In this document: piece by piece, positions 730-46,661 of the stretch | Numbering within the stretch: the stretch's first letter is position 1 | How the letters are laid out: each line of letters begins with the position of its first letter | Assembly: GCF_902806695.1 (NCBI RefSeq) | Contig: NZ_CADCXN010000002.1 | Coordinates: 1 to 64,000, forward strand | Reading direction: 5' to 3' | From: Candidatus Methylobacter favarea | GTDB taxonomy: Bacteria; Pseudomonadota; Gammaproteobacteria; Methylococcales; Methylomonadaceae | DNA: 64,000 nucleotides | Translations under genes and position numbers: made by a program | Notes under the pieces: model-generated | What the model was told of the DNA's origin: nothing | Seen by the model: the letters and a program-made list of their open reading frames with translations, nothing else | Database searches by the model: none

Positions 730-1170
730 ATGAACAATGGACATCCAATCGAAGAAATGCATGCTGATGAATCATCCCATGATCTGAATCTCAGACGTCG
801 CCGATTGATCCGTGGTGCCGCGTATGTTGCACCTATGGTACTAACGTTAAGAAGTGGCTCATTAGCGGCCGCTTCCTCCTGTACGGGTGCAAAATTACTA
901 ACATCTACGACAGACCCTAACGGCCAGCTCGCTTCCTCAACAGGAATCGCGGCAGGCGATACATGCGTTAGCGACCCTGTCACAATGGATTGCCCTAGCG
1001 GCCCTATCAGTGAACCTAAAATTATCCCTGGAAATGGAAGACTTGCAGGAATAGTGACATCAGAAACCGAGGGCTCTAATACACGATATTTTTGCTCCGG
1101 GGTGACCGCTCAAGGCACGCCTGTTGCCATCCTTAGCTCCGCTTCCGCCACTTCTTTTATTAATACATAA
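730..1170 (+). CDS. Small protein with Arg-rich signal-like N-terminus; candidate substrate of the adjacent modification genes
   Basis: The protein has 146 residues. The ATG at 730 is preferred over an in-frame TTG at 715 because a GGGAG ribosome binding site lies about eight bases before it. An acidic leader is followed by four Arg at residues 22-25, the segment LIRGAAYVAPMVLTL, and a small-residue stretch ending near SLAAASSC. This resembles a twin-arginine-type or unusual signal region. The remainder has four Cys (51, 79, 88, 122), is rich in Ser, Thr and Gly, and ends in a Ser/Thr-rich tail. It is the first gene of an operon with a PqqD-like chaperone, an HPr-kinase-like protein and a nucleotidyltransferase, so it may be the peptide they act on. 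No catalytic domain is seen. That substrate role is inference from position and composition. Confidence 0.7.
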   Translation: MNNGHPIEEMHADESSHDLNLRRRRLIRGAAYVAPMVLTLRSGSLAAASSCTGAKLLTSTTDPNGQLASSTGIAAGDTCVSDPVTMDCPSGPISEPKIIPGNGRLAGIVTSETEGSNTRYFCSGVTAQGTPVAILSSASATSFINT

Positions 1171-1183
1171 TTAATTGTGGCTT

Positions 1184-1537
1184 ATGCCGGAGGAATATTT
1201 CACGGAAATTGGTACTACCCATAGCAGCTTTGGTTTGGATAAAAACCGTAGCCTGGTTTTGACCCATGCCGGCCGCGAACTGGCGTGGCAAGAATGGGAT
1301 GACGTTTACATAGTGTATCAGCCTTCCTCAGCGGAAACGCATGTTTTCAACGACACCACCGCAGCTGTATTACAATCTCTGGAGAAGGATGTCCTGACGA
1401 TGGCTGAGATCGGGGATCGAACCGCTCAATGGCTTGATCTTGGGCGTGATGAGTTATCCAGCGGGGATTTATCTTTTGCCCTTGGACGATTGGAGGAATT
1501 GGGTCTGATCGAATGGTCGGGCACAGCCGCCCGATGA
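1184..1537 (+). CDS. PqqD-like peptide chaperone (HPr-rel-A system type)
   Basis: About 117 residues. The body, from LVLTHAGRELAWQEWDD through VYQPSSAETHVFNDTTAAVL to ALGRLEELGLIEW, has the PqqD/RRE pattern: a beta-rich start, the 'thvfN.ta' turn and a winged-helix-like C-terminal half ending in 'L..LgLi'. PqqD-like proteins bind leader peptides and present them to modifying enzymes. The start is uncertain. ATG 1184 is used, TTG 1175 is also in frame, and a GGAGG at 1189-1193 hints that translation may begin further in. The gene lies 13 bases after the small protein's stop, and its TGA overlaps the preferred ATG of the kinase gene (ATGA). Its closest match by context is the PqqD family found beside HprK-related kinase A. 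Confidence 0.75.
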   Translation: MPEEYFTEIGTTHSSFGLDKNRSLVLTHAGRELAWQEWDDVYIVYQPSSAETHVFNDTTAAVLQSLEKDVLTMAEIGDRTAQWLDLGRDELSSGDLSFALGRLEELGLIEWSGTAAR

Positions 1538-2451
1538 GGGTCGGCGATTTGGCTCTCCGGAAATTCAAAAGCCGTCTTGCAACTGAAGGTTTGCAAGTTC
1601 AGTTCGGCCCCTTCGTTATCCGGATGCGATCTGATTTGGCATCCTTCGCTTCGCTTGCTCATCAGCTATATCATCACTATCCCTTGGCATCCGCGACTGC
1701 TATGACCGACTTTCATGTGCAGATTACAAGACCTCGATGGTTGCGCCGCTGGTTGCGCCCCCAATCCCTTTTTACACTGGATGGCCAATCTCCCTTTGCC
1801 CCTTACGCCGTCGAACATGCTTTGCCCGCCCTGGAATGGGGCATCAACTGGTGTATCGCCACCCGAGCCCATCATCTCTTAATGCTGCACGCCGCAGTTG
1901 TTGAACGCGACGGTCAGGCAATTATCTTCCCGGCTTGGCCGGGACATGGCAAATCCACCCTCTGTGCCGCGCTTATCCATTCCGGATGGCGGCTCCTCTC
2001 TGATGAATTCGGCTTAGTACACCCTGAGGATGGAAAATTGCTGCCAATTCCCCGGCTCATTCCGCTCAAGAACGAATCCATCGACGTTATTAGACGTTTC
2101 AGGCCGGGGGCGATAATTGGCCCATCCTTTTTTAATACCCGCAAAGGCACTGTGGCGCATGTCATGCCGTCGGAAGAGAGTATCAGACGCGGACATGAAC
2201 CCGCTGAACCCAGATGGCTGATTTTTCCCCGTTGGGCCGCAGAAGCTTCCCTCACGCTGAAGCCGATACCTAAGAGCGAAGCATTTTTGATGGTTGCCAC
2301 TAATGCCTTCAACTATGAAGTCCTCGATAATACCGCTTTCCATCTTGTTACGGACATGGTGCAGGCGTGTGACTGTTACTCCTTTAGGTATTCGAATCTC
2401 GATGAAGCTGTCACGGCTCTCAATGCTTTGACGAGTTCAGGGCATGGGTAA
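1534..2451 (+). CDS. HprK-related kinase A
   Basis: The protein has 305 residues from ATG 1534, which overlaps the upstream stop as ATGA. An in-frame ATG at 1513 would add seven residues. The central P-loop PAWPGHGKST (about residues 133-142) and the downstream LSDEFG (156-160) match the kinase core of HPr kinase/phosphorylase. H119 in LMLHAA fits the conserved His before the P-loop strand. The family lacks the N-terminal domain of true HprK and is not known to act on HPr. Its partners here are the PqqD-like protein before it and the nucleotidyltransferase after it, with an 8-base overlap. Related kinases in some lasso-peptide clusters phosphorylate the precursor peptide, so peptide phosphorylation is a reasonable guess. 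The true substrate is unknown. Confidence 0.85.
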   Translation: MRVGDLALRKFKSRLATEGLQVQFGPFVIRMRSDLASFASLAHQLYHHYPLASATAMTDFHVQITRPRWLRRWLRPQSLFTLDGQSPFAPYAVEHALPALEWGINWCIATRAHHLLMLHAAVVERDGQAIIFPAWPGHGKSTLCAALIHSGWRLLSDEFGLVHPEDGKLLPIPRLIPLKNESIDVIRRFRPGAIIGPSFFNTRKGTVAHVMPSEESIRRGHEPAEPRWLIFPRWAAEASLTLKPIPKSEAFLMVATNAFNYEVLDNTAFHLVTDMVQACDCYSFRYSNLDEAVTALNALTSSGHG

Positions 2452-3589
2452 AGTAACTGCCCAAACGAGGCTGGCAAATCAGTTACTGCTGGAAGCCATC
2501 AAGAATCCCAAAAACTTGCCCGTATTGTCTCTGGCGGATTGGGAACTTCTGATTCGCATGGGGCGGCGGACCAGGTTGCTCGGAAGGCTGGAAGCCGACT
2601 TGTCCCGAATCGGTCTCCTAGCAGAAATTCCCTCTCGCGCAGCAGATCATCTGCGGGCAGCCCGTAATGTCATCGACCACCGGAACACTTTGGTCAAGTG
2701 GGAAATCAACCGCATCCTATGGGCGCTCAACGGTACTGAGGCCCCGATTATCCTGCTGAAAGGAGCTGCATATGTGCAGGCGAATCTCCCTCCTGCGCAC
2801 GGGCGAATATTCGCGGATGTTGATCTGCTGAGACCGGAGGAACGAATCGAAGAGATTGAGGAAAAATTAAGCCTCCGCGGATGGCTTAAAATGCAGATCG
2901 ATCCTTACGATGACCGTTATTACCGGGTATGGATGCATGAAATACCACCGCTTCGCCATCGAGAGCGAGGAACAGAAATCGATATTCACCATCGAATTCT
3001 TCCGCGGACGAGCCGCCTGAACTCTGATCCCGCGCTTTTATTCGAGGCCGCGCGCCCCCTGGAAGACTCCCGTCTTCACGTCCTTGCGCCTGCCGATATG
3101 GTGCTGCATGCCTTGGTTCATCTATTTCTAGAATGTGATCCTCGGGAGGGCTTGAGGCTTAGAGATTTGCTCGATGTCCACCTGCTTTTTCAACATTATG
3201 GCCAAGAGCAAAGTTTCTGGGATGGCTTGACGCCACGAGCGTACAAGCTGGGTCTGGAGCGTCCGCTGTTCTACGGGCTGCGTTTTGCCCTGCGCTTCTT
3301 CGATACTCCAATTCCCCAAACAGTTAGGTCAGAAATTAAGAATGCAGGGCCGCGCTGGCCGATGCTATGGCTCATGGATCATCTTGTAGCACTTGCAATT
3401 TTGCCGGGTCATCCTGATTATCCTTATCCCTGGGCGACTCTGGCACGCCACCTTCTTTATTTGCGCGCTCACTGGTTAAAAATGCCGCCCCTCATGTTAG
3501 CCCGACATTTACTTTATAAGGCTTATCTGCGATCTCGCGGAGTTCGTGGAAAGGTGGATTTGGCCAAGCTTGATCTCAGGCAACAATAA
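2444..3589 (+). CDS. Nucleotidyltransferase family protein (NTP_transf_5 type)
   Basis: The protein has 381 residues and its start overlaps the kinase gene by 8 bases. The family signature is visible as PIILLKGAAY (101-110) followed by R121-I-F-A-D125-V-D127-LL, the metal-binding acidic pair of the nucleotidyltransferase fold. A later stretch (HEIPPLRHRERGTEIDIHHRI) is also typical. Members commonly sit beside PqqD-like and HprK-like genes, including in some RiPP clusters, but their reaction is not established. It is the last gene of the four-gene operon. A decayed insertion element lies downstream on the other strand. Confidence 0.8.
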   Translation: MGKVTAQTRLANQLLLEAIKNPKNLPVLSLADWELLIRMGRRTRLLGRLEADLSRIGLLAEIPSRAADHLRAARNVIDHRNTLVKWEINRILWALNGTEAPIILLKGAAYVQANLPPAHGRIFADVDLLRPEERIEEIEEKLSLRGWLKMQIDPYDDRYYRVWMHEIPPLRHRERGTEIDIHHRILPRTSRLNSDPALLFEAARPLEDSRLHVLAPADMVLHALVHLFLECDPREGLRLRDLLDVHLLFQHYGQEQSFWDGLTPRAYKLGLERPLFYGLRFALRFFDTPIPQTVRSEIKNAGPRWPMLWLMDHLVALAILPGHPDYPYPWATLARHLLYLRAHWLKMPPLMLARHLLYKAYLRSRGVRGKVDLAKLDLRQQ

Positions 3590-3699
3590 CCTTGTAGCAT
3601 GCTCTCTACTTATTTCTGAATTCAAGCCGAACAGCATCGACTCTAAATTAATTGCGTCTATTTTCTGGTCAGTGTGAGCAATTTTTTGTTATCGACCTT

Positions 3700-4401: not shown

Positions 4402-6291
4402 TTAATTATTATTCCGCAAAAACGCCTCGAACATTAATAATGACCAAATCGGCGCGCTATAGTCGCGTAAGCCGCTTTGATGCTGGTTGACTATTTGCTG
4501 AAGGAATGTCTGATTAAATAAACCGCATTGGCTAATGTTTTCGCCTAGCAGTGATTCACGCATTTTGTTTTTTAGAGGGCCTTTAAACCAGGCAGCCAGA
4601 GGCACGGCGAAACCCATTTTAGGGCGGTACAAGATATCGTCAGGCAAGTAGTTTTCCAATGATTTTTTAAAGATGTATTTGCCCTCACGCCCTTTAAGTT
4701 TTATTTCCGGCTGCAATCCAGCCATCCATTCAACCAGCTTATGATCCAGCAAGGGTACTCTAACTTCCAGAGCATGCGCCATGCTGGCACGATCTACCTT
4801 CGTTAAAATGTCGCCAGGCAGGTAAGTTTTTATATCCAGATATTGAACCAGCGCCAAAGGGCTCTCTGTTGGTGCTTTATCAGCATATCTTTTAAACACA
4901 TCAACCGCTTGATAGCCTTGTAAATCAGACCTTAATTGTTCACTGAACAGCTTTCTGCGCAGTCCATTGGAAAGCACGGAAACACTGTGAAAATACCCGG
5001 ACATGGAATCACGGGCAATTGATTCAAATGTGGATTTTGCCCGGAAGATTTTCGGCGCCCAATCCGCTTTGGGATAAACTTGTCCCAGCAGGCCAAATAC
5101 CGGTTTTCTGATTACATCGGGCAGCCAATTGCGCATTTGCTCTTCATAAGCATGCCAGCGATAGCGCCGGTATCCTGCCAGATTCTCATCACCGCCGTCA
5201 CCCGATAATACTACCGTCACCTGTTTTTTAGCCAGTTCGCAAACCCTATAGGTCGGTAATGCCGAACTATCGGCATAGGGCTCATCGTAAAGGCCTGCCA
5301 ATTGATCAACCAGGCTGAAATCATCGGGATCGACCTGCTCAACCCGATGCGCGGTATGATAGCGGTCAGCTACTTGCGCGGCGAATTTGGATTCGTTAAA
5401 AGCAGGATCGCCAAAAGAGATTGAACAGGTATTTACGGGATCTGGCGATAAGCCCGCCATTATGGCAACCACAGCGCTTGAATCTACGCCGCCTGACAGA
5501 AATGCGCCTAAAGGCACATCCGCTACCATGCGGATCTTGACGGCCTCCCGCAAGCGTTCTATAAGTTCCTCAGCGGTTGCTTTTTCGTCTTTGAGAGATC
5601 GCGGAGTAAATTTTACATCCCAGTACTGCCGAGGCTGATAAGTTTTGCCGCCCCGTTTTAGCGTTAGGCAATAACCCGGCTCCAGTTTATAAACATTTTT
5701 ATAAATGGTTTTCGGATCAGGCACATAGCCGAAGCCGAAATACTCTTCAACAGCACGGGGATCCAGGATCTTCGGCAGTTCAGGGTGCTCTTTAAGCGAT
5801 TTCAACTCAGAGCCGAAAATAAACTGCCCGTTTGCAAGCTCGGCATAGTAGAGTGGTTTGACTCCCAGGCGATCCCGCGCCAAAAATAAGGTCTGCTTAT
5901 CCCGGTCCCAGACGGCAAAGGCAAACATGCCGCGCAGTCTGTCTACGCACGACTCGCCCCAGGCTTGCCAGCCATATAAAATAACTTCCGTATCGCAGTG
6001 GGTTTGGAAGATATAGCCCATTGCTTCCAGTTCCTTGCGCAATTCCAGAAAGTTATATATTTCACCGTTAAAGGTTAAAACTGCGTTCTTATCATGGCTG
6101 ACCATCGGTTGCTGACCGCTGCTCAGATCGATAATCGATAATCTGCGATGGCCAAAGCCCAAACCTGCTTCTACGTGCAGACCGCCCTCATCGGGGCCGC
6201 GGTGGAATTGACTTTCGTTCATGCGGGAAAGCAACTCCCGATTGATTTCCCGCTTTTCTTTTATATCGAAGATGCCGACAATCCCGCACAT
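4402..6291 (-). CDS. XrtA/PEP-CTERM-associated amidotransferase, asparagine synthase (glutamine-hydrolysing) type
   Basis: The protein has 629 residues. The N-terminal Ntn glutaminase domain begins with the catalytic Cys2 (MCGIVGIF) and carries the HRGPD and FNGEIYNF motifs. The synthetase domain has the PP-loop SGGVDSS near residue 265 and LSGDGGDEN further on. It fits the exosortase-A-system amidotransferase 1 family, which is thought to amidate or otherwise modify a sugar or carrier in EPS production. It is the last gene of the 14-gene minus-strand run, four bases after the glycosyltransferase stop. A housekeeping AsnB role is possible but less likely in this context. Confidence 0.9.
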   Translation of the reverse strand: MCGIVGIFDIKEKREINRELLSRMNESQFHRGPDEGGLHVEAGLGFGHRRLSIIDLSSGQQPMVSHDKNAVLTFNGEIYNFLELRKELEAMGYIFQTHCDTEVILYGWQAWGESCVDRLRGMFAFAVWDRDKQTLFLARDRLGVKPLYYAELANGQFIFGSELKSLKEHPELPKILDPRAVEEYFGFGYVPDPKTIYKNVYKLEPGYCLTLKRGGKTYQPRQYWDVKFTPRSLKDEKATAEELIERLREAVKIRMVADVPLGAFLSGGVDSSAVVAIMAGLSPDPVNTCSISFGDPAFNESKFAAQVADRYHTAHRVEQVDPDDFSLVDQLAGLYDEPYADSSALPTYRVCELAKKQVTVVLSGDGGDENLAGYRRYRWHAYEEQMRNWLPDVIRKPVFGLLGQVYPKADWAPKIFRAKSTFESIARDSMSGYFHSVSVLSNGLRRKLFSEQLRSDLQGYQAVDVFKRYADKAPTESPLALVQYLDIKTYLPGDILTKVDRASMAHALEVRVPLLDHKLVEWMAGLQPEIKLKGREGKYIFKKSLENYLPDDILYRPKMGFAVPLAAWFKGPLKNKMRESLLGENISQCGLFNQTFLQQIVNQHQSGLRDYSAPIWSLLMFEAFLRNNN

Positions 6292-6295
6292 ATTT

Positions 6296-7441
6296 TTATT
6301 CCGGTTTCAAAAGTGAATCATAGACGCTTTTATATTGATCAACCATGGCAGCCAGCGAAAATTGCTGCAATACCCGCTGTTGCGCATGTTGTCCATGCTC
6401 GCGCCGTTTCTGTTCATGGCTGACATAATCGAGAATTTTTTCTGCCATTGCAACAGGATCGCCGGCTTTTGTTAACTGGCCGGTTTTTCCATCTTCAACT
6501 AATTCGGGATTGCCTCCCACATTGGTTGCAATCACCGGCAAGCCCGTAGCCATCGCCTCCAGAATAGTGTTTGAGATGCCTTCTGCCAAAGACGGCAATA
6601 TAAATAAATCCAGCCGACGCATAATTTCAGCCACATCGCTGCGTTCACCGGGCAGCCAGGCGTTGTCCATTAACTGCTTTTCTGTCAGCAAATTTATTGC
6701 TTTTTCTCTTAGCGGGCCGTCTCCCACTATAAATAATTTAAGCTTGGCTTTGATTGCCGGCTGTTGTTCACAGGCATAAATAAATGCCTTTACCAGCGTT
6801 AACTGATCTTTAACGCCATGCATGCGTCCAACAGTGCCTATCACCACTTTTTCTTGAGGGAATGAGCAGGAACAACCCGGCAGTGGAGTTTTGTTTCCTT
6901 GCGGGGGATAAAAAACCGAAGTATCCACACCATTACATATCCGGGTTATTTTTTCCGGCGAAACCTGAATTTTCTCTGTCAAATAATTTTCCAGATGTTT
7001 TGACAACGGAATATATTGCTGGATCAGTGGCTTTACTATTCTTCTAACCCGTTGATATTTGATATTTTTCCCTTCAGGATCAAATATATCCCAGCCGTGT
7101 TCGCCATGTACTCTGTGCTTAATCCCAGCCAGCCATGCAGGAATTTGATATTCTATGGTACCCAGATTTCGTGTGTGGACAATGTCCGGCCTGAGCTGTT
7201 TTAACAACTTATACAGTTGCAGAAATGAGCCCCAGTCCTGACCTTGTTTTTTGTTTAGCTGATAAACCCTTACATCGCTGCGCATAAGACGGTCTTGAAA
7301 ATCGCTACTGTCTGTAAGGGAAATAATGACATGGCGATAGCCATCGGTCGGCATGTTATCAATAAGATTAACCAGGCCATTTTCCAAGCCGCCGATGCCC
7401 AGGCGATAAATAATATGCACAATAAGCGGCGAATTATTCAT
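6296..7441 (-). CDS. EPS glycosyltransferase group 1 (PEP-CTERM-associated sugar transferase 2 type)
   Basis: The protein has 381 residues. It starts LIVHIIYRLGIGGLENGLVNLI, the usual start of this family, and carries the GT-B donor-site motifs GTVGRMHGVKDQ and FILPSLAEGISNTILEAMATG (here in two pieces), with the E-x7-E pattern of GT4 enzymes. It would transfer a sugar from a nucleotide donor to the growing lipid-linked EPS unit in the cytoplasm. It lies six bases after the preceding glycosyltransferase. In related loci an exosortase gene is often found close by; here there is no room for one. Confidence 0.88.
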   Translation of the reverse strand: MNNSPLIVHIIYRLGIGGLENGLVNLIDNMPTDGYRHVIISLTDSSDFQDRLMRSDVRVYQLNKKQGQDWGSFLQLYKLLKQLRPDIVHTRNLGTIEYQIPAWLAGIKHRVHGEHGWDIFDPEGKNIKYQRVRRIVKPLIQQYIPLSKHLENYLTEKIQVSPEKITRICNGVDTSVFYPPQGNKTPLPGCSCSFPQEKVVIGTVGRMHGVKDQLTLVKAFIYACEQQPAIKAKLKLFIVGDGPLREKAINLLTEKQLMDNAWLPGERSDVAEIMRRLDLFILPSLAEGISNTILEAMATGLPVIATNVGGNPELVEDGKTGQLTKAGDPVAMAEKILDYVSHEQKRREHGQHAQQRVLQQFSLAAMVDQYKSVYDSLLKPE

Positions 7442-7447
7442 GCGTTA

Positions 7448-8635
7448 TTATTGAAATAAAGCCGAAAGCTGATTGACGTTTTGCTCCCAACTGAACATGG
7501 CTTTAACAAAATCACGATTGTTATTTGATATTATTTCTGCGCCGTTATCCTGCATTATTTTATCCAACTGCTGAACGATAACGTCAACCTCATCGCCGAC
7601 TGACACATCAAGCGTTTGATCCGAGGGTATGCCTTCCATTGCCGCTGAGGTGGCGACAACGTATTTGGCCATCGCCATCGCTTCCAAAACCTTGTTTTGA
7701 ATGCCTCTGGCGATTCTTAAAGGTGCAACTACCAGTCTGGCATGAGCAACATAGGGGCGCACATCATCAACTGCCCCCGTTACAATGATGTTTTTGTTGT
7801 TTGCAAGCTCACAGACTTCTTTACTCGGCTTGGAACCGACTATATAAAATTTTGCTTGAGGATATTTCTGAAGACGTGGAAAAACAGCGTTTCCAAACCA
7901 GGTTACGGCATCAACATTTGCCCAGTAATCCATTGCGCCGGTAAAAACAAGCGCCTCCTCGTTATCATGGTAAGGAGAGGCAAACAAATGGTCGGGCGAA
8001 AAATGATCCGTATCTACTCCATTATTGATATGAGTGATTTTTCCCTCAAGCTCGGGCGCCAAGCGCTTGAACAAGGCCGCTTCCTGTTCCGAAACAAAAA
8101 AGCTTACTTTGGATTTTTCAGCAATTGTTTTCTCATAGTTAAATAAATATTGTGCTTCCCGTTGATAAATCCATTTAGCCAGACCCTGTTTTTTATCAGC
8201 ATACTGCCGCCATTTATCCGAATCGACATCAACAAAATCGACAATCATATCAATATCGTGTGAGGCGTTAATAAACTGGGCCATAACCGACGAATATATC
8301 AGCACTTTTTTAATCCGGCGTGTTTTTATTATATGATCGACCCAATCCTGCATAGCCTGATTTCGATAATATGGCAGACTTAATGCCTCATTAGTCAGCA
8401 GCCCTCTCAGGCTTTTTATTTTAGCCAACTGCGGCTTCAATCCCATATAAAAGGTTTCAGCGCATAGGGAATCTAATATTTCGGTATATTGCCAGTCATT
8501 GGCATCATCAATAAAGGTGCCCAAATGAATGGTGTATGTGGAGGCTAAATGTTTTAGAAAATGACAGGAGCGTATCTTATCTCCCTTATTCGGCGGATAA
8601 GGAATTCTGTGGGCAAGAAAAAGCAAATCTTTCAT
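7448..8635 (-). CDS. EPS glycosyltransferase (PEP-CTERM/EpsH1-associated sugar transferase 1 type)
   Basis: The protein has 395 residues and begins KDLLFLAHRIPYPPNKGDKI, the hallmark of this family. The C-terminal half is GT-B: VFTGAMDYWANVDAVTWF, IVGSKPS, and a LEAMAMAKYVVAT segment. It should add a sugar to the EPS repeat unit in the cytoplasm. The ATG at 8635 has no evident Shine-Dalgarno sequence, and the 62-base gap upstream contains a 17-codon stub that may mark a deletion. It lies directly upstream of the second glycosyltransferase gene. Confidence 0.88.
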   Translation of the reverse strand: MKDLLFLAHRIPYPPNKGDKIRSCHFLKHLASTYTIHLGTFIDDANDWQYTEILDSLCAETFYMGLKPQLAKIKSLRGLLTNEALSLPYYRNQAMQDWVDHIIKTRRIKKVLIYSSVMAQFINASHDIDMIVDFVDVDSDKWRQYADKKQGLAKWIYQREAQYLFNYEKTIAEKSKVSFFVSEQEAALFKRLAPELEGKITHINNGVDTDHFSPDHLFASPYHDNEEALVFTGAMDYWANVDAVTWFGNAVFPRLQKYPQAKFYIVGSKPSKEVCELANNKNIIVTGAVDDVRPYVAHARLVVAPLRIARGIQNKVLEAMAMAKYVVATSAAMEGIPSDQTLDVSVGDEVDVIVQQLDKIMQDNGAEIISNNNRDFVKAMFSWEQNVNQLSALFQ

Positions 8636-8647
8636 GGCAGAGGAAAG

Positions 8648-8701
8648 TTAAATAATAACTGTCCAGGCGGGTTCATCCGCGCTGTGAAGGTGAATTTTCA
8701 T
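8648..8701 (-). pseudogene. 17-codon stub resembling the start of a second FemAB-like gene
   Basis: An ATG at 8701-8699 overlaps the FemAB stop as ATGA and reads MKIHLHSADEPAWTVII before a TAA. The pattern, with an acidic residue before A-W and hydrophobics following, looks like the first 15 or so residues of FemAB-like proteins; the intact neighbour starts IKILDEANFARWDSFV. It suggests a tandem FemAB paralogue whose remainder was deleted. The match is short, so a chance coupled mini-ORF is possible. Confidence 0.4.
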
Positions 8702-9714
8702 CCGAGGTCTTTTGCCAGCCACGGTCCTGCCATCTGACTTATCCCTAATGGCAATCGCTTCCAGGCGGCGATAAATAAGCGGTATTTCGGATTTAGCGGG
8801 TTGATATCAGGCAGGGCATGAGATTTAACCAATTGAAATTCATAAAACAAGGGTTCCGGCTGAAAGCCCCAGTTCTTTTTAAAGCTGTATGATCCTGTGC
8901 CGATTTTGCTGCGTCCATAGTCGAATATTTTTATACCCTTTTCTACGGACCGGCGCATTACTTCCCAATACATAAAGTCATTGCCCTTTAAACTGCGCGC
9001 CAGACTAGTGCCGCCTCCATAATAAGGCAGGACCTCATCCTTATAATAAAAATTCATGACGCTGCCTATCAACTGGCCATTACGCTCAACCGTCAAGACT
9101 TCGCATTGTTCTTTGAAAACATCTTTCAGCAGCTGAAAATATTTTTTCGGAAAAACCGGCGTTCCGAGATTTCTGACGCTCTCCGAATAGGCAGAAAAAA
9201 GTCGATCTACATTATTATCAATGGTGCTAGTCAACCCGGCGTCGATCCCTTTTCTGACCATCGCCCGCTGCTTTCGAGGGATAGCCAGGAAGTTTTTTTC
9301 AATATCCGGATGCAGTTTTTTTCTGAAGTTGACATATAATTCCTTATACGGTCTTTCCGTTTTCCGGCTTCTGTTTCTCATTTCCAGGTAATCCACACCG
9401 AGTTCATCAGCCAACCGGCACGCTTCCCTGTCAAGTTCTGAACTTGAGCCTTCATTACTGGCGACAATGCCTCCGTAAACGCAAAATGCTGTTGAAACCA
9501 GGGCATTACCAAATAGCAGGCTTTTTATATGCACGAGAGGCAAAATACCTGATATTTTTCCATTGGTTTCGCTATACAGATAATAAGTCTTATGGGCAAA
9601 AGCTTTTTCAATGACGGTTTTCCACCCTGTTTGATGAAAAAAGGTCGCCTCATCTGTTGCTTGCACGAAGCTGTCCCAGCGCGCGAAATTTGCTTCATCC
9701 AGTATTTTAATCAT
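8698..9714 (-). CDS. FemAB-like GNAT-fold protein, XrtA/PEP-CTERM associated
   Basis: The protein has 338 residues. It begins IKILDEANFARWDSFVQA followed by ATFFHQTGWKTVIE, and has two GNAT-like halves, with YYGGGTSLARSLKGNDFMYW and IFDYGRSKIGTGSYSFKK near the end. This matches the FemAB-related family tied to exosortase EPS loci. FemAB proteins use aminoacyl-tRNA to add amino acids, and here an aminoacyl or acyl group may be transferred to a sugar or peptide. The substrate is unknown. It lies between the deacetylase and the first glycosyltransferase. Confidence 0.88.
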   Translation of the reverse strand: MIKILDEANFARWDSFVQATDEATFFHQTGWKTVIEKAFAHKTYYLYSETNGKISGILPLVHIKSLLFGNALVSTAFCVYGGIVASNEGSSSELDREACRLADELGVDYLEMRNRSRKTERPYKELYVNFRKKLHPDIEKNFLAIPRKQRAMVRKGIDAGLTSTIDNNVDRLFSAYSESVRNLGTPVFPKKYFQLLKDVFKEQCEVLTVERNGQLIGSVMNFYYKDEVLPYYGGGTSLARSLKGNDFMYWEVMRRSVEKGIKIFDYGRSKIGTGSYSFKKNWGFQPEPLFYEFQLVKSHALPDINPLNPKYRLFIAAWKRLPLGISQMAGPWLAKDLG

Positions 9715-9756
9715 GCCTTTAACCTGTATATCCCTTTTTAATAGAACAATTACGCA

Positions 9757-10602
9757 TCACTTGAGAAAAATATTTTCCAGGGTATCCCAGCTAAAATCTG
9801 TTAATAGCTGCTTTATTCTATTTTCCATTTTATGCAAATTCAGATAATGCCGTGTTCTGGTTTTAAAACTTAAGCCGCCTTGCCTGGGCTGCCCCGGGTC
9901 AATCTCCCACGGATGAAAGTAAAAAATGCCCGACTGCTTCTCTGTATGGTTTACCCGGTTAAATGCCCATTTTGAGAGCACATACGGGTAGAATCTAAAA
10001 AAGCCGCCCCCGCCGCACGGTATGTTTTTGCCTCCCAGCCTGATCGTAGTGATGGGGAGTTCCTTAAACTCCTGATTTTCTATCGGCTCAAACATAAATC
10101 GTGGAGCATCAGGCATACCGTATAGGTCATGTTTTACCGGATAAATACTGGAACTGTATTTAAAGCCTTCTTCCTGTAAAACATTCAAAGCCCACAGATT
10201 TTTTGCGCTTATTGAATAACTGGCGGCGCGGTAGCCTTTAACTTCATGGCCGCTCATGTCTTCGAGTAATTTTTTGGTACGGGAAACATCATTACGAAAT
10301 TGTTCAGGCGTCTGTTCCGTCACGCGGATATGTTCATAGCCGTGACAGGCAAGCTCATGGCCGTCTTTTATAATTCGCTGAATCAAATCCGGATATCTTT
10401 CTGCGACCCAGCCCAAGGTAAAAAAAGTAGCTTTTATGTTTTTGTCTTCAAATATATCGAGTATCTGATGGGTGTTTTTCTGAACCCGGTGAGGTAGAGT
10501 ATCCCATTGGTCTTTGGCAATATGAGTCTCAAAGGCGGACACCTGAAAATAATCTTCCACATCGACCGTCATGGCATTTTTTCTGGGCATATTTTTAGGC
10601 AT
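9757..10602 (-). CDS. Polysaccharide deacetylase (XrtA/PEP-CTERM-associated DUF3473 type)
   Basis: The protein has 281 residues. AMTVDVEDYFQVSAFE supplies the metal and catalytic Asp of the NodB fold. KATFFTLGWVAERYP and DGHELACHGYEH supply the other motifs, and FYFHPWEIDPGQPR is the C-terminal family extension. It should remove N-acetyl groups from a HexNAc residue of the EPS. The start could instead be Met11 (10572), just before TVDVEDYF. There is no signal peptide, so it may act in the cytoplasm on lipid-linked intermediates. It is followed after 42 bases by the FemAB-like gene. Confidence 0.9.
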   Translation of the reverse strand: MPKNMPRKNAMTVDVEDYFQVSAFETHIAKDQWDTLPHRVQKNTHQILDIFEDKNIKATFFTLGWVAERYPDLIQRIIKDGHELACHGYEHIRVTEQTPEQFRNDVSRTKKLLEDMSGHEVKGYRAASYSISAKNLWALNVLQEEGFKYSSSIYPVKHDLYGMPDAPRFMFEPIENQEFKELPITTIRLGGKNIPCGGGGFFRFYPYVLSKWAFNRVNHTEKQSGIFYFHPWEIDPGQPRQGGLSFKTRTRHYLNLHKMENRIKQLLTDFSWDTLENIFLK

Positions 10603-10624
10603 AGGAATAGTGGCGCAGATTAAT

Positions 10625-11746
10625 TTATTGCAAATAGATTTTTTTTATTTTTGCAACAATTCGATCAGCTGCCTTACCATCCCAAAACTCCGGAACTCGC
10701 CCCGATTTTCCGCCTGTTGCAAGAATATCATCCACGCAGGCTTTAATCTTTTCCGGATCCGTGCCCACTATCGTATTGGTGCCTTGCTCGACAGTAATTG
10801 GCCGTTCGGTATTTTCCCGCAGGGTGATGCAGGGAGTACCCAGCGACGTTGTTTCTTCCTGCAAGCCGCCGGAATCGGTTAGTACCATTTTCGCCGACTT
10901 CATCAATCCCAGCATTTGCAAGTAGCCAACCGGCGGTAGACAGATAATATTCCCGGCATTAATAACATCTAACAGACCGGCTTGTTCAATACGATTACGC
11001 GTCCTCGGATGAACCGGAAAAATAATGGGCAGCTTTTCACTGATGGTGACAATGCTCTTCAACAAGCTTTTTAAAACTTGCGGGTCATCAACATTTGATG
11101 GCCTGTGCATGGTCAGCAAACCATAACTTTCTTCCTGAATATTATGGGCTTTTTCGTACTCCTTCAAGGTTTCGGCAAACGGGATAGCCAGTTTTAGGTT
11201 AGCCAGCAGGGTATCGATCATGACATTACCTACAAAATAAATACGGCTACTGTCTATGCCTTCACTTATCAGGTTCTCTTGTGCACTGCGCTCTGTTATA
11301 AACAGACTGTCCGAAATCTGATCGGTTAATACGCGATTAATTTCTTCAGGCATTTCCCTATCCCGGCTTCTTAATCCGGCTTCCACATGAATGACGGGTA
11401 TCTGCTTTTTAACTGCCACCAAACTGCAGGCAATGGTTGAGTTGACATCGCCGACTACCAGCACTGCACAGGGTTTTACTTTATCCAGCACAGGCTCAAA
11501 CCGAAGCATAATAGTAGCGGTCTGCTGACAATGCGAACCTGATCCTACTTCCAGATCAATATCAGGCTCCGGAATACCCAACTGTTGAAAAAAAGAGGCT
11601 TTCATTGCCTGATCGTAATGCTGTCCGGTATGGACTAAATAGGGCGAAATCTGATCCTGAAATTTTTTCAATTCCTTGATGATAGGTGCAATTTTCATAA
11701 AATTCGGCCGGGCGCCCACTACGCAGACAATTACTTTTTTGCTCAT
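10625..11746 (-). CDS. wecB: UDP-N-acetylglucosamine 2-epimerase (non-hydrolysing)
   Basis: The protein has 373 residues, the usual WecB length. It starts KVIVCVVGARPNFMKIAPII and carries VHTGQHYDQAM, VEAGLRSRDREMPEEINR, LTMHRPSNVDD and DSGGLQEETTSLGTPCITLR, all WecB/MnaA landmarks. It interconverts UDP-GlcNAc and UDP-ManNAc in the cytoplasm. With the dehydrogenase at 17.8-19.1 kb it could lead to UDP-ManNAcA or a related uronate for the EPS. It lies between the ExeA-like ATPase and deacetylase genes, as in other XrtA loci. Confidence 0.93.
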   Translation of the reverse strand: MSKKVIVCVVGARPNFMKIAPIIKELKKFQDQISPYLVHTGQHYDQAMKASFFQQLGIPEPDIDLEVGSGSHCQQTATIMLRFEPVLDKVKPCAVLVVGDVNSTIACSLVAVKKQIPVIHVEAGLRSRDREMPEEINRVLTDQISDSLFITERSAQENLISEGIDSSRIYFVGNVMIDTLLANLKLAIPFAETLKEYEKAHNIQEESYGLLTMHRPSNVDDPQVLKSLLKSIVTISEKLPIIFPVHPRTRNRIEQAGLLDVINAGNIICLPPVGYLQMLGLMKSAKMVLTDSGGLQEETTSLGTPCITLRENTERPITVEQGTNTIVGTDPEKIKACVDDILATGGKSGRVPEFWDGKAADRIVAKIKKIYLQ

Positions 11747-11758
11747 ATTATTGCTATT

Positions 11759-12784
11759 CTATTCTTGCCCGGAATTTTCGTTATAGACATCATCCATATC
11801 CAGCTGCAATAAGATGGCTTTACGCAATAATGCCCGCTCCTTGTTTAAGGTAGTCTGTAAGTTTAAAACTGTTTTCTCCAGAGCTACGAGCCGCTCATCC
11901 ACTGAGCCACTGGAATCTGCTGTTATGGTAACGGAGGCCGGCAGGATATCATGAAACTCATCAGTTACTAGCGACGATTCTTCTTCAATATCAGCAATGA
12001 CCCGGTTAACGGCGGCCAAATCGATTACTTTCAATTCGTCGAGATAGCCGAATAATAATACTCTATCGCATAAGGTGTTTATTCTTCGTGGAATGCCTTG
12101 AGAGTAGCTGCATATTTCATTAAAAACCTCATAATCAAATTGCGGAGTCTGTTCCCATCCTGCTTTCTCCAGCCGAAACAGAATATAATTTTTTGTTTCT
12201 TCTTCATTTAACGGCTTCAATTGATAGGTAGCGACTATGCGTTGTCTTAACTGCTCCATTTCCGGCAAAAAAAGCGTTTCTCCCAATTGCTTCTGGCCTA
12301 TTAAAAAGGTTTGAAACAGTGATTTTCCAGACATTTCGAAATTTGACAGCATCCGCAGCTCTTCCAGGGAGTCTTTTGGAAGATTTTGCGCCTCATCCAC
12401 AATCATGAGAACTCGTTTACCTTCGATCGCCTGCTGTATAAAAAAACGTTCTATTCTGGTTAATAAGGTGGACTTATCTTCACCATCATAAGGAAGTCCA
12501 AAAGTAGCGGAGATGATTTTTAACAGGTCGTCGGCACCGACTTGTGATGAAACCATAATGCCTATGGTAATATTATCATTATTTAAGCTATTGACCAGTT
12601 CCTTGACCAGCATGGTTTTGCCCGTGCCTGGCTTACCGGTGACGACTACAAATCCTTCGCCCTGAGTCAAGCCATAGCGCATGTAGGCCAATGCTCTTCT
12701 GTGCACGGCGCTGTTAAAAAAGAAATCGCTATCGGCAGTCAGTTGAAAAGGCTTCTTATTTAAATTATAAAAACCGTCATACAT
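11759..12784 (-). CDS. XrtA-associated ATPase, ExeA/GspA-like AAA+
   Basis: The protein has 341 residues. YDGFYNLNKKPFQLTADSDF is the typical ExeA-like start. Walker A is GKPGTGKTM, Walker B is VLMIVDEAQN, and the sensor region includes LKPLNEEETKNYI and SQGIPRRINTLCDR. The last 70 residues include a coiled-coil-like stretch. These ATPases occur in nearly every XrtA EPS locus and may help assemble the export machinery. Their exact role is not established. The start lies four bases after the beta-barrel stop. Confidence 0.9.
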   Translation of the reverse strand: MYDGFYNLNKKPFQLTADSDFFFNSAVHRRALAYMRYGLTQGEGFVVVTGKPGTGKTMLVKELVNSLNNDNITIGIMVSSQVGADDLLKIISATFGLPYDGEDKSTLLTRIERFFIQQAIEGKRVLMIVDEAQNLPKDSLEELRMLSNFEMSGKSLFQTFLIGQKQLGETLFLPEMEQLRQRIVATYQLKPLNEEETKNYILFRLEKAGWEQTPQFDYEVFNEICSYSQGIPRRINTLCDRVLLFGYLDELKVIDLAAVNRVIADIEEESSLVTDEFHDILPASVTITADSSGSVDERLVALEKTVLNLQTTLNKERALLRKAILLQLDMDDVYNENSGQE

Positions 12785-12788
12785 AATT

Positions 12789-14384
12789 TTAAAATCTCAT
12801 AAATAAACTGGCTGTTGCGCGGTTTTCTTGAAAGTCATTGGTATTTAAGTCTGACTTTTGATTTAAATGCCGAAATTCTATTCGGCCATTTAGCCGGGGG
12901 GTAATGGATCGGTTCATCCCTATGGCAATATCATAGCGGTCATCCTGGGTCGAGTTTAGGGCCCTTTCTATGTGTTGCCATCCCGGCCGTATATAGGCGC
13001 TGGTTTTGCTGGCAAACCGCCAATTCCAGGTAGCATTAAACCCTCTTACTTTCTCATTATTGCCGGTAACCTGAAATACCCTGTCCTCATTAAAGGCATT
13101 AGCGCTTATCGTGCTTTTGCCCGTATTAAACGACACTGAAAAATTCCATGTTTTTCGTACGATCACTTCATTGGTCAGGGTCGGAATATTTGGGGGACGC
13201 TGGAATTGCTGGCTGATGACCGGATTGGGTATGATATTACCGAATGGATCCTGAACCTGAAAAATCGGTAGCTGCGATAAAATTTCCTGAGTTGTTATAG
13301 TGTCATTATCATGAGTCAATGCCCAGATGGAGCGTCTGGTGCGATAATTTAACGATGTTTGCCAGGTCTTACCGGTATTTAGTCCGATCTGATTATCCCT
13401 GTAGGTTGTAATCCAGTTTATACGTTGTATGGGTGAAATCCTGACGGTGACATAACTATTGTTACCGACCCCTACGGCAATACTATAATGCAGGCTGGGT
13501 ATCCATTGCGCGCCAAGCGTATAAAACAAACCATTTTTATTACTTGAGGTAGTGGTCTGAAACTCATTATTACTATAACCTCCCTGCGCAAAGACGTTGA
13601 AATATTTATTTAAATAGGTTCTTACAGTGGCATTTGAATTTTGAAATTTAACATCATCGCCGCCTTTTCTGTAACTTTCCCGGTTATTATGAGACAGATT
13701 CCATGAAACGCGCCTAAATTTAGTCCCGCTTGTTAATTGAGCCGTTTCCCCAAGCGTTACGGTGTCTGAAATCGGGCTTAAAGGAGATGAGGGATTAGTG
13801 CCTGAGTCGGCGCCGGTTGTGATAGTATCAAAGTTAAGCCGGAAAAGTCCATTGGCATAGCTCCCAAAATGAGGCGTCCAGTACGGCGAAAGGCCAAAGG
13901 TAACCACATTGGTGCTGTTGCCGGCACCGGATATATTGTCATTGGCTATCTGATTATTAGAAAGATTCTGCTGACTGACAGAACTTCTCGAATCTAAAAA
14001 TAATTTATTCTGAACAAATATATTGTGAGAATTGTACTGTAATTGATTATAGGTGTTCAGGCCCTTGTCCCCTCGGGCGTTATACAGATTCTGCATCCGG
14101 TAGTTTAAATTCAGCGTAGTTCGGGCTGATCGTCCAATCACCGAAACGCCGGGACTTACTTCCGTAACAAATGCGTTTTTTTCATTATCTTTTGGAGCTA
14201 ACCTGATATTATCAGAATAAACTTCCTGTACCTGAATAGAAGGTCTTGTTGTCCAGTTAAGGGCAAACGACTGACTGGTATAAAAAAAAATATAAACCGT
14301 GGTCACTCTGATGAATAATACAGATAATTTAAGCAACCTGCGCGCTTCCCTGTTGTCTGTGGCTGAAACCATCTGTGCTTTCAT
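12789..14384 (-). CDS. PEP-CTERM-system outer-membrane beta-barrel protein
   Basis: The protein has 531 residues. An N-terminal hydrophobic segment (about residues 22-42) ends near QSFALNW, consistent with export. The rest alternates polar and hydrophobic residues with many aromatic strand ends and finishes NRATASLFMRF, with the terminal Phe typical of BAM-assembled barrels. It opens with SIQVQEVYSDNIRLAP, typical of the family. It is probably an outer-membrane porin-like part of the EPS export system. A 150-base gap separates it from the tyrosine kinase gene upstream. Confidence 0.85.
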   Translation of the reverse strand: MKAQMVSATDNREARRLLKLSVLFIRVTTVYIFFYTSQSFALNWTTRPSIQVQEVYSDNIRLAPKDNEKNAFVTEVSPGVSVIGRSARTTLNLNYRMQNLYNARGDKGLNTYNQLQYNSHNIFVQNKLFLDSRSSVSQQNLSNNQIANDNISGAGNSTNVVTFGLSPYWTPHFGSYANGLFRLNFDTITTGADSGTNPSSPLSPISDTVTLGETAQLTSGTKFRRVSWNLSHNNRESYRKGGDDVKFQNSNATVRTYLNKYFNVFAQGGYSNNEFQTTTSSNKNGLFYTLGAQWIPSLHYSIAVGVGNNSYVTVRISPIQRINWITTYRDNQIGLNTGKTWQTSLNYRTRRSIWALTHDNDTITTQEILSQLPIFQVQDPFGNIIPNPVISQQFQRPPNIPTLTNEVIVRKTWNFSVSFNTGKSTISANAFNEDRVFQVTGNNEKVRGFNATWNWRFASKTSAYIRPGWQHIERALNSTQDDRYDIAIGMNRSITPRLNGRIEFRHLNQKSDLNTNDFQENRATASLFMRF

Positions 14385-14534
14385 GCTTTAGCTAAATCCG
14401 AATGTATTTACAAAATCAAAATAACAATAACTTTGTTAATTAGAACCAGGGTAAATAATCAAGGCAGCCAAATAGTGCATCTACCTGGCAAATTCGTAAC
14501 TAGCTGTAATATTTCTATTAACACCTCATTAATG

Positions 14535-15434
14535 CTAATGCTCATATTGTCCATATTTGTAGTAATAACTAGCTTCCATACCTACTCTTGATTTATTGAG
14601 TACCGCCAATACTACATCACACGATGCCAATTTATTAACGGACTCCATTACCATACTCTGCAAGGTAGTTTCAGCTTCTATCACCAATACCACCTGACCC
14701 ACTAAGCGCGCCAGAATCTCTCCTTGTGTAGCGGCCAGCAAAGGCGGCGAATCAAATATTACAATTCGGTCAGGGTATCTGTTGCTTAATTGTTTTGCTA
14801 ATAAAATCATCCTGTTACTAGACAGTAATTCGGTAGAATGTTTGTGTCTTTTGCCTGCCGGAATTACACGGAGTCCAGGCATATCGGTTTTAAGCACGAT
14901 ATCTGAAAACTCAACTTCCTGGCCTTCCAGGTACTCAACCAAGCCGGGCGAGGATTTAATCCCCAGGGTTTTCGAAATGGAAGGACGCGCCACATCAGCA
15001 TCAATCAATAACACTTTTTTATCTCTCTCAGTAGCAATACTCATCGCAAGATTAATGGCAGTAAATGTTTTACCTTCACCCGGCACACTACTTGTTATCA
15101 AGATTAAATTTGAGCGTTCAATGCCTGCACTTCCTTCTCCGAAAGCATTATTAACTAATGGCCGCTTGATATTTCTATATTCTTCTATTGTCTGGGTATT
15201 TGAATCCCCAGGCGTAACGAAGCCTAATTCAGCTAACTGCACCCAATTTATATTTGCGGTTTGTTCCCGACTCTTACTATCTGTTTGTTCAATATGAGCT
15301 AGTGGAGGTATTGATTGTTGCCGAGGATCAGGTTCAAGAGAGACTTTACTTAGCTCGAGAGGAAAAGCAGTTTCCTTCTCAGCCGTTTGTTCTTCATTTT
15401 TAGCTTTGTTAAAAGCATTTTCAATGATACTCAT
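14535..15434 (-). CDS. EPS tyrosine autokinase, CpsD/CapB-like, XrtA associated
   Basis: The protein has 299 residues. Walker A is SSVPGEGKTFTAINLA, Walker A' is KVLLIDADVARPS, and Walker B is IVIFDSPPLL. The C-terminus ends ASYYYKYGQYEH, a Tyr cluster that is the usual autophosphorylation site. It works with the chain-length determinant encoded directly upstream to control EPS polymer length. The N-terminal 100 residues are a variable linker. The family is the exosortase-associated tyrosine kinase. Confidence 0.92.
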   Translation of the reverse strand: MSIIENAFNKAKNEEQTAEKETAFPLELSKVSLEPDPRQQSIPPLAHIEQTDSKSREQTANINWVQLAELGFVTPGDSNTQTIEEYRNIKRPLVNNAFGEGSAGIERSNLILITSSVPGEGKTFTAINLAMSIATERDKKVLLIDADVARPSISKTLGIKSSPGLVEYLEGQEVEFSDIVLKTDMPGLRVIPAGKRHKHSTELLSSNRMILLAKQLSNRYPDRIVIFDSPPLLAATQGEILARLVGQVVLVIEAETTLQSMVMESVNKLASCDVVLAVLNKSRVGMEASYYYKYGQYEH

Positions 15435-15475
15435 TTATACCTCTGCATAATTTTTCATCAACTGATGCTTTAAAA

Positions 15476-17032: not shown

Positions 17033-17084
17033 AGTTTTTTGCTACCCCTTATTAACATCATAGGTTTAATTTATTACTCAGGTG

Positions 17085-17792
17085 TTAAAAAAATGATTCA
17101 GGTATTATTACAATATCCCCTGGTAAAATTTTCACATTTGCAGACAAATCAGCATTGTCAATCAAGTCATCAATTCTAATTCCAAAATGCTGTTGCTCAC
17201 CATTGATATTACGAATAATACTTGCTCTATTGCCATCCGAATAGGGCCCCAGGCCGCCAACCTGTATCATCAAGTCCAACAAGGTCATATCCTTCTTGTA
17301 AGGAAATGCCTTGGCAGAAAAACGGGCGCTTCCACCCATGCCTATGTTGCCTCCGCCTCCGCCGCCGGCACCCATTCCGCCCCCACCTCCTGCTCCACCG
17401 CCGCTCAATTGACCTACAATTCTAACTTGCTGAGTATAAACGCCCTGAAAGCCGCCTACCATAATGACCACCTGCGGATCCCGGACATATTTAGCCAATT
17501 GTTTCTCCATCACTCTGGCTAGTTGAGATGGCGTTTTTCCACTCGCCAGCAAATCTTCTGCCAATGGAATGGTTATTTTTCCATCCGGTCTTACCGTGGC
17601 TGTGGTCGATATATCTGGATTTCCCCATACAAAAATAGTCACACTATCCCCCGGACCTATGATATAGGTATAGTCAGAAGGAATAACTGCATCTTCTTCC
17701 TGGGTTAGTTGCGGATAACCGCAGCCTGAAGCCAGCAGGACAAGCATAGGAAATGCCAATTTTATTTTCTTTGTTAATCTCACACCCATCAC
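17085..17792 (-). CDS. EPS export lipoprotein, Wza-like (XrtA/PEP-CTERM associated)
   Basis: The protein has 235 residues with a lipoprotein signal ending LLASGC (Cys24). The polysaccharide export domain (YIIGPGDSVTIFVWGNPDIS, TVRPDGKITIPLAED) is followed by a SLBB-like domain (MTLLDLMIQVGGLGPYSDGN, ILPGDIVIIPES). It should form the outer-membrane EPS channel. An unusual feature is a Gly-rich insert at residues 131-154 (17331-17402), where about 18 of 24 residues are Gly, between the two domains. The gene lies between the dehydrogenase and chain-length genes. Confidence 0.9.
   Translation of the reverse strand: MMGVRLTKKIKLAFPMLVLLASGCGYPQLTQEEDAVIPSDYTYIIGPGDSVTIFVWGNPDISTTATVRPDGKITIPLAEDLLASGKTPSQLARVMEKQLAKYVRDPQVVIMVGGFQGVYTQQVRIVGQLSGGGAGGGGGMGAGGGGGGNIGMGGSARFSAKAFPYKKDMTLLDLMIQVGGLGPYSDGNRASIIRNINGEQQHFGIRIDDLIDNADLSANVKILPGDIVIIPESFF
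17331..17402 (-). repeat. Poly-glycine coding insert in the export lipoprotein
   Basis: Twenty-four codons encode almost only Gly with a few Ala, Met, Asn and Ile, in a run of GGN codons. This low-complexity tract lies between the export domain and the SLBB-like domain. Codon choice is mixed, so it is probably a selected linker and not a recent triplet expansion. Confidence 0.8.
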
Positions 17793-17831
17793 CTAAATCA
17801 TTTAAGGTCTATTTTTGAAAGCCGTATAATT

Positions 17832-20134: not shown

Positions 20135-20184
20135 AATTGACTCCTAATTAATTGTAGATAAGTATAAAAATGATTCATTAAAGA

Positions 20185-46656: not shown

Positions 46657-46661
46657 TGCTG

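Follow-up and report, generated by a model that had tools for sequence, protein, structure and literature searches.

The window analysed here, the first 64,000 nucleotides of a Candidatus Methylobacter favarea contig (NZ_CADCXN010000002.1), carries four confirmed open reading frames on its forward strand between positions 730 and 3589. A gene for a 146-residue protein, the proposed substrate (730..1170), is followed by genes for a PqqD-like protein (1175..1537), an HprK-like kinase (1513..2451) and an NTP_transf_5 protein (2444..3589). The PqqD-like frame opens with a TTG, its earliest in-frame ATG lying at 1184. The kinase probably starts at 1534, equivalent to the ATG used in most relatives, which overlaps the PqqD stop codon as ATGA. 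This gene set, small first gene included, had been named in an earlier sequence-only reading, and the reading frames and family scores bear it out. The kinase scores 415.8 bits against TIGR04352 (HprK-related kinase A; cut-off 200) and the PqqD-like protein 56.9 bits against TIGR04353 (cut-off 35), making both members of HPr-rel-A; the NTP_transf_5 protein scores 179.8 bits against PF14907 (cut-off 31.2).

The translated first gene has the features ascribed to it in that reading, an Arg-rich start (R22-R25), four Cys and a Ser/Thr-rich C-terminal end. Profile searches returned nothing for it in NCBIfam up to E 0.1, and its best Pfam match was no better than E 0.14. The operon also proved, as first described, to lack a lasso cyclase or peptidase gene. 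The identical four-gene order was found in many distant genomes, so the operon is not a chance arrangement, and at one locus (L184) the kinase and transferase are fused.

The putative modifying enzymes and the PqqD-like protein

The presumed catalytic residues are invariant, as counted on proteins of ordinary length only: H126, K147, D164 and E165 in 97/97 kinases, and D125, D127 and D180 in 89/89 transferases. The four kinase residues were compared by eye with the His-Lys-Asp-Asp set of lasso kinases, and a kinase profile searched against PDB sequences reached HprK just at E 0.007 or weaker.

The PqqD-like protein had been taken for a leader-binding (RRE) type, and both its sequence and its predicted structure point the same way. 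Its best PDB chain by sequence is TfuB1 (E 3e-5). The alignment used (A5) holds 50 of the 80 PqqD-like proteins that a pattern found in the 103 loci described below, window included, and 49 of these 50 match TIGR04353. The predicted structure (pLDDT 88.5) has the wHTH fold with N-terminal strands seen in leader-bound RREs. TbiB1 is its top row in Foldseek (E 2.3e-3, with none at 1e-3 or better), and VIA gives TbiB1 a Z of 8.8, where unrelated winged-helix rows reach about 8. The predicted model resembles lasso RREs.

The first gene and its candidate acceptor

We counted the first gene across 103 kinase loci (L032-L054 and L059-L138), reduced to 102 by one duplicate (L075 equals L047 over the last 250 kinase residues). 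The sequence-only reading had taken this gene for the substrate and had pointed to its conservation beside the enzymes as the matter to examine; it adjoins them in 91 of the 102 loci, and the computation supports it as the likely substrate. The N-terminal HMM behind this count was built from 22 sequences, 21 of them within the counted loci, and in loci independent of its training the figure is 70/81. The search was run at E 1 with --max, and the weakest accepted match (L094, 2.5 bits) was checked by eye. No first gene was seen at three of the 102 loci. In 20 further loci, hand-picked from 61 for family spread before exopolysaccharide genes were sought, the HMM found the first gene in 15 and inspection by eye found it in L186, while it was not found at L176, L177, L178 and L185.

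A profile of the class B first genes (A4, which took 46 of the 64 class B proteins) matches 20 of 61 relatives, and every one of these belongs to the 24 genomes whose kinase exceeds its cut-off. Twelve of the 20 contributed sequences, the independent part being the other eight together with absence in 37 kinase-negative genomes (those under the cut-off, six of which have weak kinase matches). In one of the 20 (G035) the match lies on another contig (C432), away from the kinase. The 24 genomes common to two separate searches were counted by hand, and all statistics here ignore shared ancestry.

The conserved part of the first gene is the RRRRLIRGAAYVAP motif. In the window, residues 22-47 (793..870, forward strand) comprise RRRR, a hydrophobic stretch, a YVAPMVLTL leader core and an AxA-like end; R23, R24, L26, P35, T39 and L40 are near-invariant in alignment A3. 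This segment appears to combine a Tat signal with an RRE leader. A Tat function is suggested by the twin Arg preceding the hydrophobic stretch, with R24 present in 40/40 class A proteins, a matching Arg in 46/46 class B proteins, and the partner Arg kept in 90% or more. Tat models match few class A proteins, and weakly (TIGR02811 4/40 and TIGR01409 1/40, best E 0.013; PF10518 2/40, E 0.074). For the 46 class B proteins, the matches include no Tat model. The genome encodes TatC (238.7 bits). As a leader, YVAPMV fits the [Y/W]xxPx type of the linear polyphosphorylated peptides (LPP); among relatives the Pro is common and the LPP-consensus Tyr rare. A Pro common to the leaders of every first gene was considered and rejected, many class B proteins having Gly instead. 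The predicted substrates span about 120-300 residues, and AlphaFold2 folds the window's protein at pLDDT 63 and pTM 0.35 (40-row alignment).

Downstream of the leader, 34 of 39 class A proteins have a Ser at Pro+15 (P35 and S50 in the window) and four more have one at Pro+14; the spacing was counted on 39 of the 41 proteins, L186 and L187 falling outside the search expression. Class B proteins space their Ser differently from the leader position. Ser50 (877..879, forward strand) is the likely phospho-acceptor, because its spacing matches the consensus of the LPP system of Bacillota, in which the Ser at Pro+15 is the proven phosphorylation site, S3 of the core, according to the available text of that report (PMC13381572). 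An acceptor elsewhere, with enzymes and substrate unchanged, seems unlikely to us. The candidates would be the Ser of a C-terminal SCWxS(F/L/I) end, counted by eye in 31/40 class A proteins, or several Ser/Thr; YLxxT(M/F/W) forms the C-terminus of many class B proteins, and paeninodin-type HprK-like lasso kinases target a C-terminal Ser (PMC9266682, as available). Yet the SCWxS end is missing from the window's protein and eight others of the 40, and its Cys may give it a structural role, whereas the Ser at Pro+15 shows the LPP spacing.

The exopolysaccharide neighbourhood

Many of the bacteria with this gene set have exopolysaccharide (slime-layer) genes as well, a context that the sequence-only reading did not mention. 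In the window, an XrtA/PEP-CTERM-type exopolysaccharide locus occupies 4402..22623 on the reverse strand, outside the operon, with NCBIfam scores over cut-off for TIGR03108, 03088, 03087, 03019, 03006, 03015, 03016, 03018, 03007 and 03027. A PrsT-like protein falls under its cut-off (292.3 against 312.2 bits), and no XrtA over cut-off was found in the window's genome. The adjacent gene (4402-6291), of the asparagine-synthase family, encodes the exopolysaccharide amidotransferase TIGR03108 (1075.8 bits, cut-off 816.9) and not a lasso cyclase (257.5 bits against the model NF033535, cut-off 525). This XrtA-type marker is over cut-off in 24/24 kinase-positive relatives and in 30 of all 61, six of the 30 being without the kinase. 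The cassette lies immediately before a TIGR03108-type gene in 9 of the 20 picked loci. Exopolysaccharide genes are near the cassette in 29 of 103 loci, a figure that includes the duplicate and three loci (L079, L048 and L103) where, sugar genes aside, the assignment rests on a single match of TPR or ATPase type; a stricter count gives 25/102.

The system is associated with the XrtA/PEP-CTERM locus and, in many relatives, also with the sigma-54 promoter of that locus. The PEP-CTERM promoter, an activator box plus sigma-54 site, precedes about half of the first genes, the window's excepted: no 17-nt box ending in TTTACA with a sigma-54 site was found upstream of it. The window holds five one-mismatch box matches, all away from the operon and no more than shuffled sequence can yield. 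The TTTACA half of the pattern was taken from the available part of PMC1569441 and the TGTCR half from the first-gene upstream rows, which makes the upstream count partly circular. In the TTTACA permutation test TTTACA itself was counted in the permutation mean, and it overlaps the second-ranked hexamer, ATTTAC (9).

Neighbour clustering also brought up a trypsin-like protease (PF13365) in 21/102 loci. Among the 61 relatives it is present in 22 of the 24 kinase genomes, and TIGR03108 is over cut-off in 26 of the 27 protease genomes, four of these 26 being without the kinase. The protease was rejected as a fifth part because its distribution tracks the exopolysaccharide marker and not the kinase.

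Proposed role and relation to known systems

The operon probably places a phosphate tag on one Ser of a small exported protein before export. The reading that we favour, with somewhat better than even confidence, is that of a Tat-exported, protein-sized counterpart of LPP in which S50 is phosphorylated, receives a second tag and serves the exopolysaccharide matrix. The first gene would encode the substrate, whose N-terminal segment would act as a Tat-type export signal and as a leader (xxPxVLTL) held by the PqqD-like RRE. The RRE would present the leader-bearing protein to the HprK-like kinase, which would phosphorylate Ser50, 15 residues past the leader Pro and at roughly position 3 once the protein is mature. 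To this phosphate the NTP_transf_5 enzyme would then add either a hexose, the modification reported for PsmN, or a nucleotide. Once tagged, the protein would leave via Tat, lose its leader to signal peptidase and serve the XrtA-type matrix. A bolder form, possible but doubtful, has the Tat signal doubling as a RiPP leader and the extended phospho-Ser linking the secreted protein to, or priming, the XrtA-type exopolysaccharide; the bond would then be a protein-polysaccharide phosphodiester, assembled with the toolkit of peptide natural products.

The classical role of HprK is that of a regulatory protein kinase, and this, together with the Tat-like twin Arg and the linkage to the exopolysaccharide locus, would suit a different and, we think, quite unlikely arrangement: the PqqD-like protein as a mere Tat proofreading chaperone, the enzymes acting on an exopolysaccharide-pathway regulator, sugar or lipid, and the first protein a co-expressed matrix protein. 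However, the PqqD-like protein resembles RREs, kinases and transferases of these types modify peptides where tested (PMC13381572 and PMC9266682, as available), and the conserved Ser at Pro+15 would be left unexplained. A remnant or variant lasso or RiPP cluster making a small cyclised peptide, with the 4402-6291 protein as cyclase, is very improbable: RRE, kinase and transferase do occur in paeninodin-type clusters (same sources), that protein matches the lasso cyclase model and the cassette often directly precedes such a gene, but its lasso score is below cut-off and its TIGR03108 score well above, TIGR03108 also occurs without the kinase, the operon has no B2-type peptidase, and the substrates are protein-sized.

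Returning to the tagged-protein reading, the kinase and PqqD-like protein belong to HPr-rel-A, with no difference found. The NCBIfam model descriptions seen do not state a substrate or function for these families. Within the library searched, no paper naming them turned up, and literature searches pairing exosortase with HPr kinase or PqqD, or RiPP with twin-arginine, returned nothing on this system. If our reading is true, this widespread pair (TIGR04352/TIGR04353) would gain a substrate and a role.

In the paeninodin/pseudomycoidin-type lasso clusters, as described in the available part of PMC9266682, an HprK-like kinase acts on the C-terminal Ser of the precursor and the NTP_transf-type enzyme PsmN leads to a hexose on the phospho-Ser. 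The operon shares with them a kinase of this type for a precursor Ser, an RRE (B1) and an NTP_transf-type enzyme. It differs in having no lasso cyclase or B2 peptidase, a predicted acceptor near the mature N-terminus and a protein-sized substrate.

The LPP system, as far as the available text of PMC13381572 describes it, likewise combines an RRE, an HprK-like kinase and an NTP transferase with no cyclase, and its precursors have a conserved N-terminus and a variable remainder, a Pro-x-V-L leader and a Ser at Pro+15; its LppN was without detectable effect in B. subtilis. Its hosts are Bacillota, whereas those of the operon are proteobacterial and carry the exopolysaccharide locus. The LPP leader reads YxxPxVLxHQxIxFET, in contrast to the Tat-type RR signal with AxA-like site. 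A dedicated archaeal-type SpI peptidase and a dedicated MsbA-like exporter set LPP apart: the window's genome has no TIGR02228 match, with no such peptidase in the operon or its first neighbours, and no MsbA-like exporter is among the eight proteins at 730-9714 or the ten at 9757-22623, the contig end lying upstream. If true, our reading would take RRE-guided phosphorylation beyond small peptide natural products, to exported proteins with several Cys, and would name the acceptor residue.

With the PEP-CTERM/EpsH (XrtA) system and its PrsK-PrsR-sigma-54 regulon (PMC1569441, as available) the operon shares a genomic neighbourhood, and many relatives' first genes have the PrsR-type promoter (17-nt box ending in TTTACA, spacer, sigma-54 site). 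No PEP-CTERM end was seen among the first-gene C-termini inspected; unlike PEP-CTERM proteins, the first genes examined carry an N-terminal RR-type signal. Exosortase-type exopolysaccharide loci would thereby gain, if the proposal is true, a modified protein.

The operon and its first gene

Four closely packed plus-strand genes lie in the first 3.6 kb of the window, which begins at base 1 of contig C2. They encode a 146-aa first protein (ORF 730-1170), a PqqD-like protein (ORF 1175-1537; TIGR04353, over cut-off), an HprK-like kinase (ORF 1513-2451, probable start 1534 with an ATGA overlap; TIGR04352, over cut-off) and an NTP_transf_5 protein (2444-3589) that fits PF14907. TIGR04353 and TIGR04352 are named "HPr-rel-A system PqqD family peptide chaperone" and "HprK-related kinase A" in NCBIfam, and a literature search by the names and accessions of both HPr-rel-A families found no paper. 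The first gene gave no significant family match in NCBIfam or Pfam.

The sequence-only reading had guessed that the first gene encodes the substrate of the enzymes beside it. The core of this guess holds and gains detail: the first gene is their conserved partner, and its modification is still a prediction. An N-terminal HMM found an upstream ORF with a common N-terminal pattern in 91 of 102 unique kinase loci, and in 70 of 81 once the 21 loci that built the model were removed. The 11 loci without a match comprise four cut by a contig end, four with a diverged RR-type first gene and three with none. Among 20 further loci, the first gene was recognized by HMM in 15 and by eye in one, and was not found in four.

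First genes are of two kinds, class A (that of the window) and class B. A class B profile matched 20 of 61 relatives. All 20 belong to the 24 genomes whose kinase is over cut-off, and the 37 others gave no match (Fisher p 1.7e-12, the profile being partly built from 12 of the 20 matching genomes). Nineteen of these matches adjoin the kinase; the remaining one is on another contig (G035, a genome of the same family, f1, as that of the window). Of the four kinase-positive genomes that lack a class B match, three have class A first genes instead (loci L033, L040 and L052), and in the fourth the contig is cut (L034). The first gene belongs to the system. Two further matches, in G024 and G031, are limited to the C-terminal domain of class B and lie away from a kinase; in the former (G024:C1:2154271-2154651) the domain is part of a 2056-aa ORF and has no RR leader. 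Another relative, G052, has one weak class B match interrupted by stop codons.

Anatomy of the first protein and the proposed acceptor serine

Alignment of 40 class A proteins, that of the window among them, and 46 class B proteins revealed one N-terminus in common: RR-x-[FL]-x-[KR]-[GA] leads into a hydrophobic stretch that has TL close to its end, and a short polar segment and an AxA-like site follow. Judged by eye, this would be a Tat-type signal; curated Tat models matched class A weakly and class B not at all. R24 is present in 40/40 class A proteins and the corresponding Arg in 46/46 of class B, which is marked by a CxGxSPGYW domain. The remainder is hypervariable except for Cys residues and an SCWxS-like C-terminal end that 31 of 40 class A proteins have, that of the window not among them. 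Two short first genes of about 130 aa (L186:4367-4753 and L187:6401-6790) end in FTCFASLQMPRG and have Ser-Ala-Ile in place of the leader Pro of the others.

In the linear polyphosphorylated peptides (LPP) of Bacillota, the precursor consensus YxxPxVLxHQxIxFETxxS is cleaved after T, and Ser3 of the core, at leader Pro +15, is the sole phosphorylation site of the kinase LppK (PMC13381572, 2026). The window's protein is similar, with Y32-V-A-P35-M-V37-L38 followed by S50 at Pro+15. Across 39 class A proteins, some of them close relatives, the Ser is at Pro+15 in 34, Pro+14 in four and Pro+16 in one. Ala occupies Pro+12 in 34/39; with cleavage at that point the Ser would become residue 3, just as it is in LPP. 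Past Pro+12 no other position is so uniform (Ala +13 in 20/39, Cys +19 in 17/39, Ser +14 in 14/39). The invariant Ser of class B lies within SGNxS, deeper in the mature part, and the Pro+15 rule, read from these alignments, is limited to class A.

Exopolysaccharide neighbourhood and promoter elements

An XrtA/PEP-CTERM-type exopolysaccharide locus adjoins the operon on the opposite strand. Thirty of 61 relatives have TIGR03108, the amidotransferase used as a marker of this exosortase-linked system, over cut-off. These include every one of the 24 kinase-positive genomes, 10 of which carry the TIGR03108 gene ≤2.5 kb from that of the kinase. With plain sugar genes excluded, homologues of exopolysaccharide genes from the window occur in 29 of 103 kinase stretches (25 of 102 after dropping one duplicate and three weak cases) and in 16 of 20 further stretches. 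In 9 of those 20, glycosyltransferase 03088 and amidotransferase 03108 flank the cassette; these counts are of kinase loci alone. Of 398 genomes surveyed in the phylum, 34 have XrtA over cut-off, 61 the kinase and 24 both (Fisher p 1.4e-14, ancestry ignored). The 37 kinase genomes under the XrtA cut-off include that of the window, which has a full XrtA-type locus (window 4402-22623), yet its best exosortase match (G000:C102:86494-87270) reaches 142.5 bits vs the cut-off of 208. A trypsin-like protease (PF13365; for example L043:4634-5410 and G000:C95:21684-22439) occurs as one copy each in 27 of 61 relatives, 26 of them with TIGR03108 over cut-off. In 21 of 102 loci its gene lies near that of the kinase, and the protease may belong to the XrtA-type system in general.

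Proteobacterial PEP-CTERM genes are described as preceded by a box of 17 nt that ends with TTTACA, then a 32-92 nt spacer and a sigma-54 site (Haft et al., 2006, PMC1569441). Before the first genes of 105 loci, sigma-54 sites with a score of at least 9 of 11 were found in 54 (4.5 expected from Markov shuffles) and of at least 10 of 11 in 22 (0.5 expected). TTTACA stands at the right interval (spacer 51-87 nt) in 23 of 49 loci with a sigma-54 site of this kind within 260 bp, vs a mean of 1.3 across all 60 permutations of its letters. The box TGTCRNNNNNNTTTACA scores at least 10 of 11 in 56 of 104 loci vs 0.48 expected, in a test that is partly circular. Owing to these elements, many members look like part of the PEP-CTERM regulon; the window's operon is excluded, since the box and the sigma-54 site were both sought upstream of it and are both absent. 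Elsewhere in its genome the box occurs 10 times, vs once for the reversed pattern. Two of these PrsR-type boxes precede a PEP-CTERM protein, at distances of 174 and 542 nt (G000:C52, about 46042-47800), and a third (G000:C109:1304-1320) is 212 nt upstream of a protein ending in VPEP.

The putative modifying enzymes and comparison with LPP

The PqqD-like family resembles RiPP recognition elements (RREs). TIGR04353 is matched by 49 of 50 aligned members, and the best PDB chain by alignment is the lasso RRE TfuB1 (E 3e-5). Foldseek with the AF2 model (pLDDT 88.5) placed TbiB1 and other RREs on top at E 2.3e-3 or weaker, and VIA-align superposed the model on TbiB1 with Z 8.8 (3.5 Å, 88 residues), some unrelated winged-helix chains scoring about 8. 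Kinase residues H126, K147, D164 and E165 are kept in 97/97 sequences and transferase residues D125, D127 and D180 in 89/89. One locus (L184:3968-6085) has a single 706-aa ORF in which the kinase is fused to NTP_transf_5. In pseudomycoidin, PsmN leads to a hexose on phospho-Ser (PMC9266682); LppN, the LPP NTP transferase, is reported to have had no effect in B. subtilis (PMC13381572).

On this reading the first protein is probably exported and has a putative RRE leader; it would be phosphorylated, probably at Ser50, and tagged further, and the product would serve an exopolysaccharide system. The SpI peptidase and exporter that an LPP cluster has of its own were looked for and neither was found; we therefore keep the system apart from the LPP class, whose pathway the operon would resemble in how it works.
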